From a virus: a DNA stretch of 27,912 nt. The DNA is taken from positions 1 through 27,912 of the IMG/VR virus record IMGVR_UViG_3300030450_000121; one strand, written 5' to 3'. Positions within the stretch are counted from its first letter, which is position 1. Every line of letters starts with the position of its first letter. Under the pieces are notes generated by a model, which was given only the letters and a program-made list of their open reading frames with translations, ran no database searches and was not told where the DNA came from. Positions 1,668-27,912 of this stretch are shown piece after piece. Both the position numbers and the translations under genes were made by a program.

Positions 1668-1697
1668 CAAATAAAAACGTACTTTTTCTATTATATA
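1668..1697 (+). promoter_or_regulatory. Late promoter element, copy 1
   Basis: CAAATAAAAA at 1668-1677, nine bases, then TCTATTATATA at 1687-1697. It lies between the terminator at 1635-1657 and the ATG at 1700. If TATTAT (1689-1694) acts as the -10 box, the transcript would begin at or next to the start codon, so this mRNA would be nearly leaderless. It shares layout and spacing with four other copies in the window. Confidence 0.75.
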
Positions 1698-8004: not shown

Positions 8005-8421
8005 ATGATTAAAAAAAGTAAAGTAAAAAAAGTACAAGCCAATGGAACTTGGGAAGGTAAATTTGGTATGATGTATAAGTTTGAAGTAGAATTTGAAGAT
8101 GGTAATGCAGGTGAGTATTCATCTAAAACACAAGATCAGAATAAATTTATTGAAGGACAGGAAACTGAATATGAATTTATAGACGGTAACTTTCCTAAAG
8201 TCAAGCCTGTATATCAACAACCACAATCTTTTGGCGGTGGATTTAAAAAAGATGAAAATGTGCAAAAAATGATAGTAAAACAATCAAGTCTGAAGTCAGC
8301 AGTTGATTATTGTAGTGGTGGTAATTGCAGCACGTCAGATGTTTTAAGAGTAGCACAAGAATTTGTTGATTGGGTAATGGATGATAAGAAACCTAATGAA
8401 AATAATGAAATGCCTTTCTAA
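8005..8421 (+). CDS. Probable single-stranded DNA-binding protein
   Basis: The 138-residue protein looks like a phage SSB. Residues 5-60 alternate strands as in a small OB fold (VKKVQANGTWEGKFGMMYKFEVEFEDG, ETEYEFIDGNFPKV). A Gln/Gly-rich linker follows (YQQPQSFGGGFKK), then a helical region. The extreme C-terminus is acidic and ends NNEMPF, close to the DDDIPF tip through which bacterial SSBs recruit replication and repair partners. A Cys-containing segment (DYCSGGNCSTSDV) is unusual. It precedes the DnaA-like and winged-helix replication proteins, and its stop overlaps the next ATG, supporting a role at the replication fork. Fold assignment is by pattern only. Confidence 0.7.
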   Translation: MIKKSKVKKVQANGTWEGKFGMMYKFEVEFEDGNAGEYSSKTQDQNKFIEGQETEYEFIDGNFPKVKPVYQQPQSFGGGFKKDENVQKMIVKQSSLKSAVDYCSGGNCSTSDVLRVAQEFVDWVMDDKKPNENNEMPF

Positions 8422-8945
8422 TGACAGCAAAAGACAACTTTAAACATATATGCAACCTCACTACTAATATAATGGGGTTGCGTAAAGGTTCTCTTTCTTA
8501 TAAAAGTAGAAAGCAAGAGATACAACTAGCACGAAACATAGCAGGAGTTATAGGCATTAAGGAAGGTATTAAGAGGGAAGTAATTGCAAAACAACTTAAT
8601 AGACACCGTACTGCAATCTATCACTATGAAAAACAACACAAAGATTGGTTTGGTAGTAGGTCTTACCCTTATTATGCTAAGGCATATACTAAAGTATTTT
8701 CAGCATACCAAGAAATAGAAGATTCTAGGAAACAATTTATAGATAAATTTCATCTAAGACATTTTGTTAGAGAATTAGGATTAAAAAATTGTGAAAAGAA
8801 AGATGTAATTTTTACAATAACTTCAGGATCAGTTAGCTATCAAGTATTCTCAGATACACATAATTTTAGCAACTATTATGACACTTTGAAATTAGCTTTA
8901 AGTGGCTATAAAGCAATTTTAAACTACCAGGAATATGAAGATTAA
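8421..8945 (+). CDS. DnaA domain IV-like DNA-binding protein
   Basis: Residues 25-75 resemble the C-terminal DNA-binding domain of DnaA: LSYKSRKQEIQLARNIAGV followed by a helix-turn-helix ending LNRHRTAIYHYEKQHKD. The last part is close to the DnaA signature in which R-D-H-T-T-V precedes a helix. There is no AAA+ ATPase domain. The remaining 100 residues are unrelated and may form an effector or oligomerisation domain. Alone, such a protein could bind DnaA boxes at the phage origin, compete with host DnaA, or regulate transcription. It overlaps the SSB-like gene by one base and is followed by the winged-helix replication protein. Confidence 0.75.
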   Translation: MTAKDNFKHICNLTTNIMGLRKGSLSYKSRKQEIQLARNIAGVIGIKEGIKREVIAKQLNRHRTAIYHYEKQHKDWFGSRSYPYYAKAYTKVFSAYQEIEDSRKQFIDKFHLRHFVRELGLKNCEKKDVIFTITSGSVSYQVFSDTHNFSNYYDTLKLALSGYKAILNYQEYED

Positions 8946-10872: not shown

Positions 10873-10880
10873 TAACTTTG
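10873..10880 (+). promoter_or_regulatory. Possible internal host-type promoter
   Basis: TAACTTTG at 10873-10880 is a perfect match to the Bacteroidota -7 box TAnnTTTG. It lies in the 21-base gap before ATG 10885, so a transcript would start almost at the start codon. No convincing -33 TTG is found at the right distance, which lowers confidence. If active it would give the sigma-like gene (11234) its own early promoter. Confidence 0.35.
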
Positions 10881-10884
10881 GCAA

Positions 10885-11241
10885 ATGACAAAACCAATTT
10901 ATGCCAATAATGAACACGAAGTAATTGTAAGTGCTTATATTATAATGATAAAAGAATTTGTTAAAGATGTATCAAATGAAACTAGGTGGCATAATTTTTT
11001 AGATGTTTTAGATATTGTAATTGAGTATCATAATAATTATGGAAAAGGAGTAAGGGAAAATAACTATTGGGATTGGATAATGATATTGCCAATTAACTTA
11101 TCTGTCTTAACTAACGGTTATTTAGCAGCAATAGAAACAAAAAAGAATAGTGCAGTAGTACGATCATATAAGCTCCTTTTGAATGAAATGGTACAAGATG
11201 TTGTAGATAAGATTGAGAAACTAGAGCCAATTAATGACTGA
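10885..11241 (+). CDS. Hypothetical early protein upstream of the sigma-like gene
   Basis: This 118-residue protein is helical with moderately hydrophobic helices (EVIVSAYIIMIKEFVKDV, FLDVLDIVIEYHNNYG, NYWDWIMILPINLSVLTNGYLAAIE) but no clear membrane span. No motif was recognised. It overlaps the sigma-like gene by eight bases, and this tight coupling raises the possibility that it is a partner or regulator (for example an anti-sigma or co-activator) of that factor. That is inference from position only. Confidence 0.65.
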   Translation: MTKPIYANNEHEVIVSAYIIMIKEFVKDVSNETRWHNFLDVLDIVIEYHNNYGKGVRENNYWDWIMILPINLSVLTNGYLAAIETKKNSAVVRSYKLLLNEMVQDVVDKIEKLEPIND

Positions 11242-11809
11242 AATTTACTTAGAAATATCAAAGCTAAGTGACAAGTTCAGGACAATGTGTTACGGACTTA
11301 CTCAAAATAAAACAGATATTGATAATGCCGTTCAAGAACTTTTCTTGTATTTTATGCAGATGAATCCTGATACTTTAAAAAAAATATATGACAAAGACGG
11401 ATTAGATGGAATTACTAAATATGGTGCAGTCGTTTTACGCAGGGCTTTAACAAGTCCAAGAAGTCCATTCTATTATAAGTATGAAAAATATTATACACAT
11501 ATTGACAGTTCTTGTTATTCTGCTAGTACAACTTTTAGTAATGATGATGTGGCTTTTAATGTTGCTAATAATAAAAACATATCAAACATTCCGAATGAAA
11601 AAGTAGATAATTATCAATGGGAAAAACTTGAACAAATAGATAAGGAACTTGATAAGCTGCATTGGTACGATAGAGAATTATTTAAGTTGTATTATTCAGG
11701 AGAAACTTTAGATAGTCTTGCAGAGAAAACTAGGATAAGTCGTAACAGCCTTTTCACTACAATAGACAAAGTAAGAACAATACTTAAAAAAGAATTAGCA
11801 GATGAATAA
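11234..11809 (+). CDS. Sigma-70/ECF-like RNA polymerase sigma factor
   Basis: This 191-residue protein has the two-domain build of ECF sigma factors. Residues 8-75 resemble region 2 (DKFRTMCYGLTQNKTDIDNAVQELFLYF, then YGAVVLRRAL). Residues 130-188 resemble region 4, with LDKLHWYDRELFKLYYSGETLDSLAEKT and ISRNSLFTTIDKVRTILKKEL, which looks like the -35-binding helix-turn-helix. A longer linker (76-128) separates them, and length fits the 160-200 residue norm. In other phages small proteins of this kind redirect host RNA polymerase. The five identical promoter-like elements before the late genes are its natural candidate targets. Region 2 is weakly matched, so a plain DNA-binding regulator remains possible. 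Confidence 0.7.
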   Translation: MTEIYLEISKLSDKFRTMCYGLTQNKTDIDNAVQELFLYFMQMNPDTLKKIYDKDGLDGITKYGAVVLRRALTSPRSPFYYKYEKYYTHIDSSCYSASTTFSNDDVAFNVANNKNISNIPNEKVDNYQWEKLEQIDKELDKLHWYDRELFKLYYSGETLDSLAEKTRISRNSLFTTIDKVRTILKKELADE

Positions 11810-14153: not shown

Positions 14154-14533
14154 AATTTGTAATAAAGGATAAGCGAGATAAACAAAGCCTAATAAACTAT
14201 TTAAAAGAGTTAGGTAATGACTATATAGTAGATGTAAAGAAGCAAAGAAACAATAGGTCTAATATGCAAAACAATTACTATTGGAAATGTATAGTACAAA
14301 CACTATCAGAAGAACTTGGTTATTTTCCAAATGAGATTCATGATATACTCAGGGCTAAGTTTTTAAATGAATGGGAAATGTTAGAAATAAACGATAAGAA
14401 AATAGGAATAAATAAAATAGGAAGTACAGCTACATTAGACACTAAGGCATTTGAGATATATGCAGACCAAATAAGGATATGGGCTTTAACTGAACTAGGT
14501 ATAAGACTAATGCTACCAAATGAATACGAGTAA
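14150..14533 (+). CDS. NinB-like recombination protein
   Basis: This 127-residue protein resembles NinB-type single-strand DNA-binding and annealing proteins. It has KKQRNNRSNMQNNYYWKCIVQ (residues 32-52), matching the 'RS..QN..yw' signature, then GYFPNEIHDILRAKFL and IRIWALTELGIRLMLPNEYE. It starts at TTG 14150, which overlaps the TGA stop of the methyltransferase (TTTTGA), so translation is coupled. With the NinG-like nuclease it would form a small recombination set. Its last codons (from 14517) double as the upstream half of late-promoter copy 2. Confidence 0.75.
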   Translation: MKFVIKDKRDKQSLINYLKELGNDYIVDVKKQRNNRSNMQNNYYWKCIVQTLSEELGYFPNEIHDILRAKFLNEWEMLEINDKKIGINKIGSTATLDTKAFEIYADQIRIWALTELGIRLMLPNEYE

Positions 14534-14546
14534 TTTCTATTATATA
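14517..14546 (+). promoter_or_regulatory. Late promoter element, copy 2
   Basis: CAAATGAATA at 14517-14526 lies inside the end of the NinB-like gene; TCTATTATATA is at 14536-14546. Spacing equals the other four copies. It precedes the terminase genes by 32 bases to ATG 14579. Conservation of the upstream half within coding sequence, where the codons are also constrained, adds weight. Confidence 0.7.
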
Positions 14547-14578: not shown

Positions 14579-14848
14579 ATGGATAAACGAACAAATAACG
14601 GTGGAGCAAGAAAAGGTGCAGGGCGTAAGTCTAAGGCAGCAGAACAAAAGTTAATAGAGAATTTAACACCTATGAATAGTATGGCTTTAGAGTCCTTAGA
14701 AAAAGGATTAGAAAAGAAAGAACAATGGGCAGTTAAGTTATTCTTTGAATACTTTTATGGTAAACCTCAGCAAAGAGTAGATGTTACTTCAAATGAAGAA
14801 ACTCTTAATATGCCTGTAATAACATTTGTAGAAACTGAAACTGAATAG
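14579..14848 (+). CDS. Terminase small subunit-like protein
   Basis: The 89-residue product begins MDKRTNNGGARKGAGRKSKA. The G-A-R-K-G-A-G-R-K motif is common at the N-terminus of small terminase-type DNA-binding proteins in Bacteroidota phages. Helical segments follow (MALESLEKGLEKKEQWAVKLFFEYFYGKPQQ) and an acidic tail. It sits directly before the large terminase and would recognise the packaging site. ATG 14579 is preferred; a TTG at 14555 in the same frame would add eight residues. The stop overlaps the proposed start of the large subunit, suggesting coupling. Confidence 0.75.
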   Translation: MDKRTNNGGARKGAGRKSKAAEQKLIENLTPMNSMALESLEKGLEKKEQWAVKLFFEYFYGKPQQRVDVTSNEETLNMPVITFVETETE

Positions 14849-16037
14849 TAAATATAACGCACTATTTTCTTCTGATGCTAGATACTTCATTATAACAGGG
14901 GGTAGAGGATCAGGAAAGTCCTTTGCAGTTACAGTCTTTCTTACTTTACTTACAATGACTGAAGGAATTAGAATACTATTCACAAGATACACTATGACTT
15001 CAGCACGTCTTTCAATAATACCTGAGTTCTTAGAAAAGATAAGCCTATTAGGATATGAGAATATTTTTAGCGTAAACAAAGCTGAGGTTGTAAACTTAAA
15101 GAACAAATCAGATATACTATTTAGAGGTATCAAGACATCAGCAGGGAATCAAACTGCAAGTCTAAAATCTTTAACAGGTGTTTCAACTTGGGTACTTGAT
15201 GAGGCTGAAGAACTTGTAGATGAAAACATCTTTGATACAATAGACCTTAGTATTAGAGAAAAGGAAATACAGAATAGAATTATATTAGTCTTAAATCCTG
15301 TTACTAAAGACAACTGGATATATGAAAGGTTCTTTGAAGGTAAAGGAATAGAAGCAGGTTTTAATGGCGTTAAAGACAATGTATGCTATATCCACAGTAC
15401 ATACCTAGACAACAAAGAAAACCTCTCAGAGAGCTTCTTAGGGCGTGTAGAGGCTATGAAACATACTAACTTTAAAAAATATACTCAAAAACTTTTAGGT
15501 CAATGGTTAGATAGAGCTGAAGGTGTAGTATTTGATAATTGGAGTGTAGGTGAGTTTAATCCTGACAACTTACAGACTTCATGCGGAATGGATTTTGGTT
15601 TTAGTATTGATCCTGATAGCCTTACAGAAGTAGCAATAGATAAGAAGCATAAGAAGATTTATTTAAAAGAACACATATACAAGAATGGTTTAAAGTCGCA
15701 AGAACTTGCTCAGATAGTTTTAGATAAAGTAGCTGATAAGTTAATCATAGCTGATAGTGCAGAGCCTAGACTTATTGCAGACCTCAAGCACTTAGGAGTT
15801 AATATCAAGCCTGTTAAAAAAGGAACTATTGAAAGTGGTATAACAAGAATGCAAGATTATCATTTGGTAGTAAGTCCTGAAAGTACAAACATAGCTAAAG
15901 AATTAAACAACTATGTATATGCAGATAAGGGTTCAAAGTTGTATGTAGACAATTACAATCATGCAATAGATTCTGCAAGATATAACATAATATATCACTT
16001 AGACAATCCAAATGCAGGCAAGTATTTTGTGCAATAA
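14841..16037 (+). CDS. Terminase large subunit (PBSX/XtmB type), probable CTG start
   Basis: This is the ATP-driven DNA packaging motor and headful or site-specific nuclease. In the 398-residue form the Walker A motif GGRGSGKS is at 20-27, Walker B WVLDEAEE at 117-124, and the nuclease acidic residues are D251 (CGMDFGF), D305 (IIADSAEPR) and D377 (NHAIDSARY). The first ATG (14955) lies after the Walker A motif and cannot be the start. The frame is open back to 14832 and has no ATG, GTG or TTG, so the likely start is CTG 14841, which overlaps the small-subunit stop, or CTG 14835. Ribosomal frameshift from the small-subunit gene is an alternative. The expected family N-terminus, KYNALFSSDARYFIITGG, is intact. 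Confidence 0.85.
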   Translation: MNSKYNALFSSDARYFIITGGRGSGKSFAVTVFLTLLTMTEGIRILFTRYTMTSARLSIIPEFLEKISLLGYENIFSVNKAEVVNLKNKSDILFRGIKTSAGNQTASLKSLTGVSTWVLDEAEELVDENIFDTIDLSIREKEIQNRIILVLNPVTKDNWIYERFFEGKGIEAGFNGVKDNVCYIHSTYLDNKENLSESFLGRVEAMKHTNFKKYTQKLLGQWLDRAEGVVFDNWSVGEFNPDNLQTSCGMDFGFSIDPDSLTEVAIDKKHKKIYLKEHIYKNGLKSQELAQIVLDKVADKLIIADSAEPRLIADLKHLGVNIKPVKKGTIESGITRMQDYHLVVSPESTNIAKELNNYVYADKGSKLYVDNYNHAIDSARYNIIYHLDNPNAGKYFVQ

Positions 16038-16115: not shown

Positions 16116-16145
16116 AAACTAAATAACAACATTTTCTATTATATA
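16116..16145 (+). promoter_or_regulatory. Late promoter element, copy 3
   Basis: AAACTAAATA at 16116-16125 is the least conserved upstream half (8 of 10), followed after nine bases by the invariant TCTATTATATA at 16135-16145. It lies between the terminator at 16039-16072 and ATG 16150 of the tail module. The -10-like TATTAT (16137-16142) puts the start of transcription at or near the ATG. Confidence 0.7.
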
Positions 16146-24970: not shown

Positions 24971-25000
24971 CAAATAAATACTAACTTAATCTATTATATA
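24971..25000 (+). promoter_or_regulatory. Late promoter element, copy 4
   Basis: CAAATAAATA at 24971-24980 (perfect match to the consensus) and TCTATTATATA at 24990-25000, nine bases apart. It begins three bases after the tape-measure-like stop and precedes ATG 25021 of the protease/coiled-coil unit, leaving a leader of roughly 15-20 bases. Confidence 0.75.
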
Positions 25001-27083: not shown

Positions 27084-27113
27084 CAAATAAATAAATAACT
27101 ATTCTATTATATA
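27084..27113 (+). promoter_or_regulatory. Late promoter element, copy 5
   Basis: CAAATAAATA at 27084-27093 (perfect) and TCTATTATATA at 27103-27113. It drives the scaffold-like gene at 27143 and, after circular closure, the capsid gene. The leader of about 25-30 bases is A-rich. Confidence 0.75.
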
Positions 27114-27832: not shown

Positions 27833-27912
27833 TAATAACAAACAAAAAATAAAAAATTATGGCGTTTACTACAACATCAAATTTCGCAGGGAAAGCAGCA
27901 GGATTTTATATT
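27811..27912. repeat. Terminal overlap, right copy, with 5' part of capsid gene
   Basis: This is the right-hand copy of the first 102 bases. It contains the end of the scaffold-like gene (stop at 27832) and, from ATG 27859 to the window end, the first 18 codons of the major capsid gene that is complete at 49-966. It should not be counted as a second capsid gene. Confidence 0.95.

Follow-up and report, generated by a model that had tools for sequence, protein, structure and literature searches.

Phage T4 encodes a sigma factor, gp55, that brings the host polymerase to late promoters with an AT-rich −10-like sequence; this protein has no region 4 and works together with gp33 and the gp45 clamp. 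Other phages place a late regulator before their packaging genes, such as Q in lambda-like phages or RinA and ArpU in Gram-positive phages. Mechanistically, RinA, ArpU, and LtrC act as activators and bind to repeats that lie ahead of a single host-type promoter (PMC13123087). The closest described systems are those of phage 7-11 (SaPh711_gp47) and phage phiEco32 (gp36), for which phage sigma factors with late promoters have been experimentally proven (PMC8948821, PMC4331800). Host sigma-70 reads the early genes of these phages while the phage sigma factor reads a few promoters before late genes (PMC8948821, PMC4331800), and the late promoters of 7-11 are bipartite (PMC8948821). The two sigma factors are 15% identical, recognize different promoters, and occupy similar genome positions (PMC8948821, PMC4331800).

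A sequence-only reading of the DNA described here had proposed a phage-encoded sigma-like factor as reader of late elements and considered such a pairing new for a 28-kb Bacteroidota phage. This overestimated its novelty, because pairings of a phage sigma factor with late promoters are already established for phiEco32 and 7-11 (PMC8948821) and sigma region 2 is already annotated in the cultured phage P12024S. The scheme is thus known, and it is the setting that is new, as well as abundant. On the combined basis of sequence comparisons and a structure model, we consider it very probable that the protein is an ECF-like sigma factor and guides the host's RNA polymerase to a late promoter peculiar to the phage.

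Genome context and the sigma operon

The window, i.e., the whole stretch of DNA that was analysed, is a single virus record of 27,912 bases (IMGVR_UViG_3300030450_000121) from a small marine phage of ca. 28 kb whose probable hosts are Bacteroidota. By eye, its last 80 nt (27833–27912) repeat part of its start (ca. 1–105) with one mismatch, which makes a nearly complete circular genome of ca. 27.8 kb probable; the ends suggest a circular or terminally redundant molecule, and a search of the window for an exact terminal repeat found none. With a NinG-like gene on one side and the terminase genes on the other, the sigma-like gene is preceded by a short gene with which it overlaps by 8 nt:

10873 to 10880, plus strand: putative host-type −7 box TAACTTTG of the Bacteroidota sigma-A kind, separated by 4 nt from the ATG of gene 10885 and conserved in relatives
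10885 to 11241, plus strand: first gene of the sigma operon, 118 aa, found in 9/9 complete relatives
11234 to 11809, plus strand: putative sigma-70-family (ECF-like) protein of 191 aa, from profile, relatives, AlphaFold model, and the viral structure library BFVD

Further downstream, the TerL frame (14840–14960) has no ATG, GTG, or TTG upstream of the Walker A motif, and a CTG overlaps the TerS stop. Judging from the sequence, TerL translation must use a non-standard start codon or be coupled to, or frameshifted from, TerS.

Flavobacterial sigma-A promoters carry TAnnTTTG at −12 to −5 (PMC9723704). This motif lies a few nucleotides upstream of the ATG of gene 10885 in 155 of 157 relatives (background 4.8% per 60 nt) and is at background directly before the sigma-like gene itself as well as before late gene 16150 (4/81), whose promoter would therefore not be a host promoter. 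The sigma operon thus looks host-read while the late genes do not, and the conserved box supports the earlier view, at the level of sequence, that the sigma-like gene is an early gene made by host RNA polymerase. The 118-aa product of gene 10885 has no family match and its gene stands directly before the sigma-like gene in nearly all relatives; the protein is a candidate sigma partner or anti-sigma factor, and a role in polymerase takeover would be a guess.

The sigma-like protein

The open reading frame runs from the ATG at 11234 to the stop codon at 11807–11809 and is conserved over its full length in more than 590 IMG/VR stretches. An alignment of relatives shows two conserved blocks (residues ca. 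1–92 and 127–188) with a variable linker between them:

11234 to 11509, plus strand: putative sigma region 2-like domain, residues 1–92, with a VQE motif at 33–35; from pLDDT and conserved columns, weak by sequence alone
11510 to 11611, plus strand: variable linker, residues 93–126, divergent in the alignment and of low pLDDT
11612 to 11797, plus strand: putative sigma region 4-like helix-turn-helix domain, residues 127–188, matching region 4 of E. coli sigma-E

The NCBIfam model sigma70-ECF (TIGR02937) matches the window protein over residues 12–188 (E 1.5e-6). Its scores lie under the curated cut-offs of this model (27.9 versus 42.9 bits) and of Pfam Sigma70_r4_2 (15.1 versus 25.7), which are bookkeeping thresholds rather than biological features; we therefore file the protein as sigma-like by architecture and context, outside any curated subfamily. 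Among the relatives, TIGR02937 matches 33 of 34 (best E 4e-10), followed in frequency by the model of a Bacteroidetes sigma-70 subfamily. PHROGs yields phrog_36 (“transcriptional regulator”) for 42/44 relatives and phrog_1740 (“RNA polymerase sigma factor”) for 38/44. Region 4-like features had been noticed at residues 130–188 and a weaker region 2 at 8–75, and this asymmetry recurs when the halves are searched separately: the C-terminal part alone matches TIGR02937 with E 9e-5 (8e-9 in the relative L083), while the N-terminal part reaches E 0.02 at best in the window family and is the weak half by sequence.

The better AlphaFold model is all-helical with a pLDDT of 77 overall and ca. 90 over residues 1–70. 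When it is compared to the PDB with Foldseek, nearly all matches are sigma factors aligned along the entire length of the model, none with an E-value below 0.001 and with a large rmsd that reflects the undefined orientation of the domains. VIA-align gives Z 10.3 to E. coli sigma-E over residues 1–191 in the sigma domain order and Z 9.8 to sigma-E region 4 alone (2h27_D; rmsd 1.8 over 66 residues), values that are moderate for helical proteins, with almost all matches shown being sigma factors. Many named matches in BFVD are phage sigma factors, and the best match (E 2.3e-7) is an unnamed protein. Phmmer and profile searches against PDB sequences retrieved no sigma factor, which leaves fold and family profiles as the basis of the structural link; when aligned directly to E. 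coli sigma-E with hhalign, the protein gave only a weak match to region 4, and tblastn with the window protein against the cultured phage collection gave no match. Both elements of an ECF-like architecture are retrieved by profile and fold, region 4 directly and region 2 through the profile match over 12–188 and the fold over 1–191. Profile and modelled fold together thus confirm a predicted sigma-2/linker/sigma-4 layout, and the comparison with sigma regions 2 and 4 proposed earlier comes out in favour of the proposal.

A bipartite late element and its association with the sigma-like gene

Upstream regions of the window share a recurrent TTTCTATTATATA, and across relatives the element is bipartite, with AAAMTRAAT followed by a free stretch and then TTTCTATTATATA. 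The first block is placed around −20 to −11 relative to the C of CTATTATATA, and with 17 nt between AAMTRA and TATATA the pair fits a sigma-type −35/−10 geometry. A weight matrix trained on relatives with a sigma-like protein only ca. 54% identical, and with the window left out, finds exactly five sites in the window (18.9 to 32.9 bits), all on the plus strand and none in the early region; the next best scores 2.7, and shuffled windows lead to an expectation of 0.02 sites at or above 14 bits. The five sites precede structural and packaging genes:

1668 to 1697, plus strand: putative late promoter element 1 (18.9 bits), 12 nt before the ATG of gene 1700
14517 to 14546, plus strand: putative late promoter element 2 (32.7 bits), before TerS (14555, TTG start) and TerL
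16116 to 16145, plus strand: putative late promoter element 3 (32.9 bits), 14 nt before the ATG of gene 16150 at the start of the tail region
24971 to 25000, plus strand: putative late promoter element 4 (27.5 bits), before gene 25021
27084 to 27113, plus strand: putative late promoter element 5 (31.8 bits), upstream of the scaffold-like gene 27143 and, when read on across the ends of the contig, of the major capsid gene at 49

The shared class of non-host promoters postulated from the letters of the window is real, bipartite, and sharper than claimed. A dimer operator was considered for the perfect palindrome TATTATATAATA found at some sites and rejected, since its right half is not fully conserved in relatives and the motif occupies one strand only and has another block ahead of it. 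Start codons follow 9 to 48 nt after the C of the −10-like block in complete relatives, often at 12 to 14 nt. An ATG 9 to 12 nt past this C would put a standard transcription start at or inside the start codon, which is unusual, and from the closeness of element or box to start codons we predict that the late mRNAs and likewise the 10885 transcript are leaderless or near-leaderless. In Flavobacterium psychrophilum, leaderless mRNAs make up only 5.5% (PMC9723704).

Gene and element accompany each other in both directions, as the check suggested with the original proposal had called for. In nine further complete relatives the element stands before these genes as well and does not occur on the other strand, and each of the 46 sigma loci with at least 6.5 kb of downstream sequence has a site in it. 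All sigma loci fetched by protein together hold 209 sites on the sigma strand and 0 on the opposite one, and the 4 kb upstream of the sigma-like gene (506 kb in total) contain 0. Conversely, when the bipartite pattern alone was scanned against IMG/VR, each of the 10 pattern-selected records of 27 to 32 kb that were checked carried the sigma-like gene; shorter partial contigs came with or without it, and absence from a partial contig is uninformative. Two pattern matches in contigs of 77 kb and 176 kb lacking the gene were discarded since they look like chance, being AT-rich with no reading frame after them. NinG, gene 10885, DUF6171, and gene 8421 are also co-inherited with the sigma lineage, and the co-occurrence is partly owed to common descent because gene and motif share one lineage.

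Several relatives show peculiarities of their own. Searches with the window proteins do not detect TerL in G003, G004, G010, and G011, which keep the sigma-like gene and the elements, nor NinB in G003, G010, and G011 (this does not apply to G004). One 31-kb record (G001, the record of L172) has two different sigma copies, one near each end (698–1252 and 29148–29711); this contig may be chimeric or over-long. The phage family of the window is also carried by MAG contigs with the labels Euryarchaeota and Pseudooceanicola (L082 and L083), which are probably mis-binned phage DNA.

The nearest cultured relatives are the Nonlabens phages P12024S and P12024L (NC_018271, NC_018272), with a TerL 63% identical to that of the window. 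At the same position upstream of TerS and TerL they encode a 159-aa protein (P12024S gp33, P12024L gp35) already annotated with sigma-70 region 2, and the P12024S counterpart passes Pfam Sigma70_r2 (25.2 versus a cut-off of 24). Tblastn with the window protein did not find it in either phage, and profile comparison gives a weak match over the first 50 residues only. CTATTATATA is absent from P12024S and P12024L, where seven late genes are instead preceded by AAAACAAA-N13/14-CGTTAAT or a close variant at near-constant spacing. Written as AAAACAAA-N14-CGTTAATA, this element compares to AAAMTRAAT...CTATTATATA in the window family, and the two types line up as TTTTC-GTTAA-TATAGTATG versus TTTTC-TATTA-TATAGTATG. 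The P12024 type is kept in relatives whose sigma-like protein is 48% to 92% identical, and among nine records selected by this motif four contain the P12024-type sigma-like gene, the rest being short fragments or very large contigs. NinG, 10885, DUF6171, 8421, and Rep are all undetectable in P12024S, which leaves the sigma-like protein as the shared candidate factor. Sigma factor and promoter thus appear to have co-diverged between the window family and P12024, in line with the co-variation expected from the earlier proposal, in a contrast that is independent once only. A Riemerella phage with a TerL of 46% identity has no annotated sigma-like gene before TerL. The literature searched contains no description of a late promoter set for P12024S, P12024L, or the marine phages of the window family.

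The proposed late switch and known systems

In the mechanism that we propose, the host sigma-A holoenzyme would transcribe the 10885–sigma operon early, as the conserved host-type box suggests. The sigma product would then bind host core polymerase via region 2, to judge from its fold and conservation, and regions 4 and 2 would read AAAMTRAAT (−35-like) and CTATTATATA (−10-like), respectively, before five late operons: terminase, tail, the genes from 25021 on, scaffold and capsid, and the genes from 1700 on with the portal. Transcription would then probably begin at the start codon or a few bases away from it. Reading of the element by the sigma factor has strong support in the co-occurrence, the restriction to one strand, the gene positions, and the co-divergence; binding to core polymerase, melting of the promoters, timing, and transcript starts close to or at the start codon are what we infer beyond this. 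Co-occurrence, late-only placement, and the host box before the operon also favour the self-contained early-to-late switch envisaged by the sequence-only reading.

The main competitor, which we regard as improbable, is a RinA/ArpU/LtrC-like activator that has merely a sigma-4-like helix-turn-helix, binds the element, and helps the host sigma-A holoenzyme. The genome position is the same as that of these regulators, PHROG_36 matches 42/44 relatives as a “transcriptional regulator,” and region 4 is the stronger half of the protein. However, TAnnTTTG is not above background before late gene 16150 (4/81), and a host-read operon beside late genes that are not argues against an activator of host sigma-A. 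Just 9 to 48 nt separate the element from the start codon, and five dispersed bipartite elements differ from the one repeat array at a single promoter of Ltr proteins (PMC13123087). The N-terminal domain, moreover, is conserved and folds as sigma 2 in the model.

Less probable still is that another phage DNA-binding protein reads the element while the sigma-like protein acts otherwise, for example the product of 8421–8945, whose gene occurs in 9/9 complete relatives and has a weak DnaA-C-like helix-turn-helix match. This gene is located in the replication module, though, and its product retains 24% to 43% identity where the sigma-like protein keeps 50% to 71% and the element hardly changes; it is also undetectable in P12024S, which preserves promoter architecture and sigma-like gene. 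We give hardly any credence to the element being a translation or RNA-processing signal instead of a promoter: a location 9 to 48 nt ahead of start codons would suit such a signal, but the element is absent from early genes and stands before only five of ca. 20 late genes, with a second block ca. 20 nt upstream at fixed spacing while the spacing to the start codon varies.

With the sigma factor as the preferred reader, a broader synthesis can be offered tentatively, as a possibility that we would not bet on in its entirety. It would comprise a self-contained sigma/promoter pair abundant in marine Bacteroidota phages, −10 and −35 blocks re-specified between sister lineages under fixed geometry to form natural orthogonal pairs, leaderless or nearly leaderless late mRNAs, and a co-transcribed 118-aa 10885 protein that aids the sigma factor's polymerase takeover. 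The analysis provides a concrete transcription programme for an abundant marine phage group without a sigma match in the cultured phage collection searched, and a proposed promoter set for the two cultured phages P12024S and P12024L. Two sister sigma/promoter pairs that share their geometry and differ in sequence constitute a natural experiment in the evolution of sigma specificity and could serve as orthogonal expression parts for Bacteroidota.

Compared to T4 gp55, the window protein carries both sigma domains, and its element includes a −35-like block. With RinA, ArpU, and LtrC it has in common the gene position before the packaging genes and a role in switching on late genes, but these regulators lack a phage-specific bipartite promoter set such as the window has, and the window shows no array of repeats ahead of a host sigma-A promoter downstream of the regulator gene. 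The likeness is greatest to phiEco32 and 7-11, with phage-specific promoter-like elements before late genes only and a sigma operon behind a host-type promoter, here from sequence (155/157 relatives). Those are enterobacterial podophages with larger genomes and the promoters GTAAtg-16-aCTA and tAATGTAtA, whereas the window phage has ca. 28 kb, probable Bacteroidota hosts, and promoters abutting start codons.
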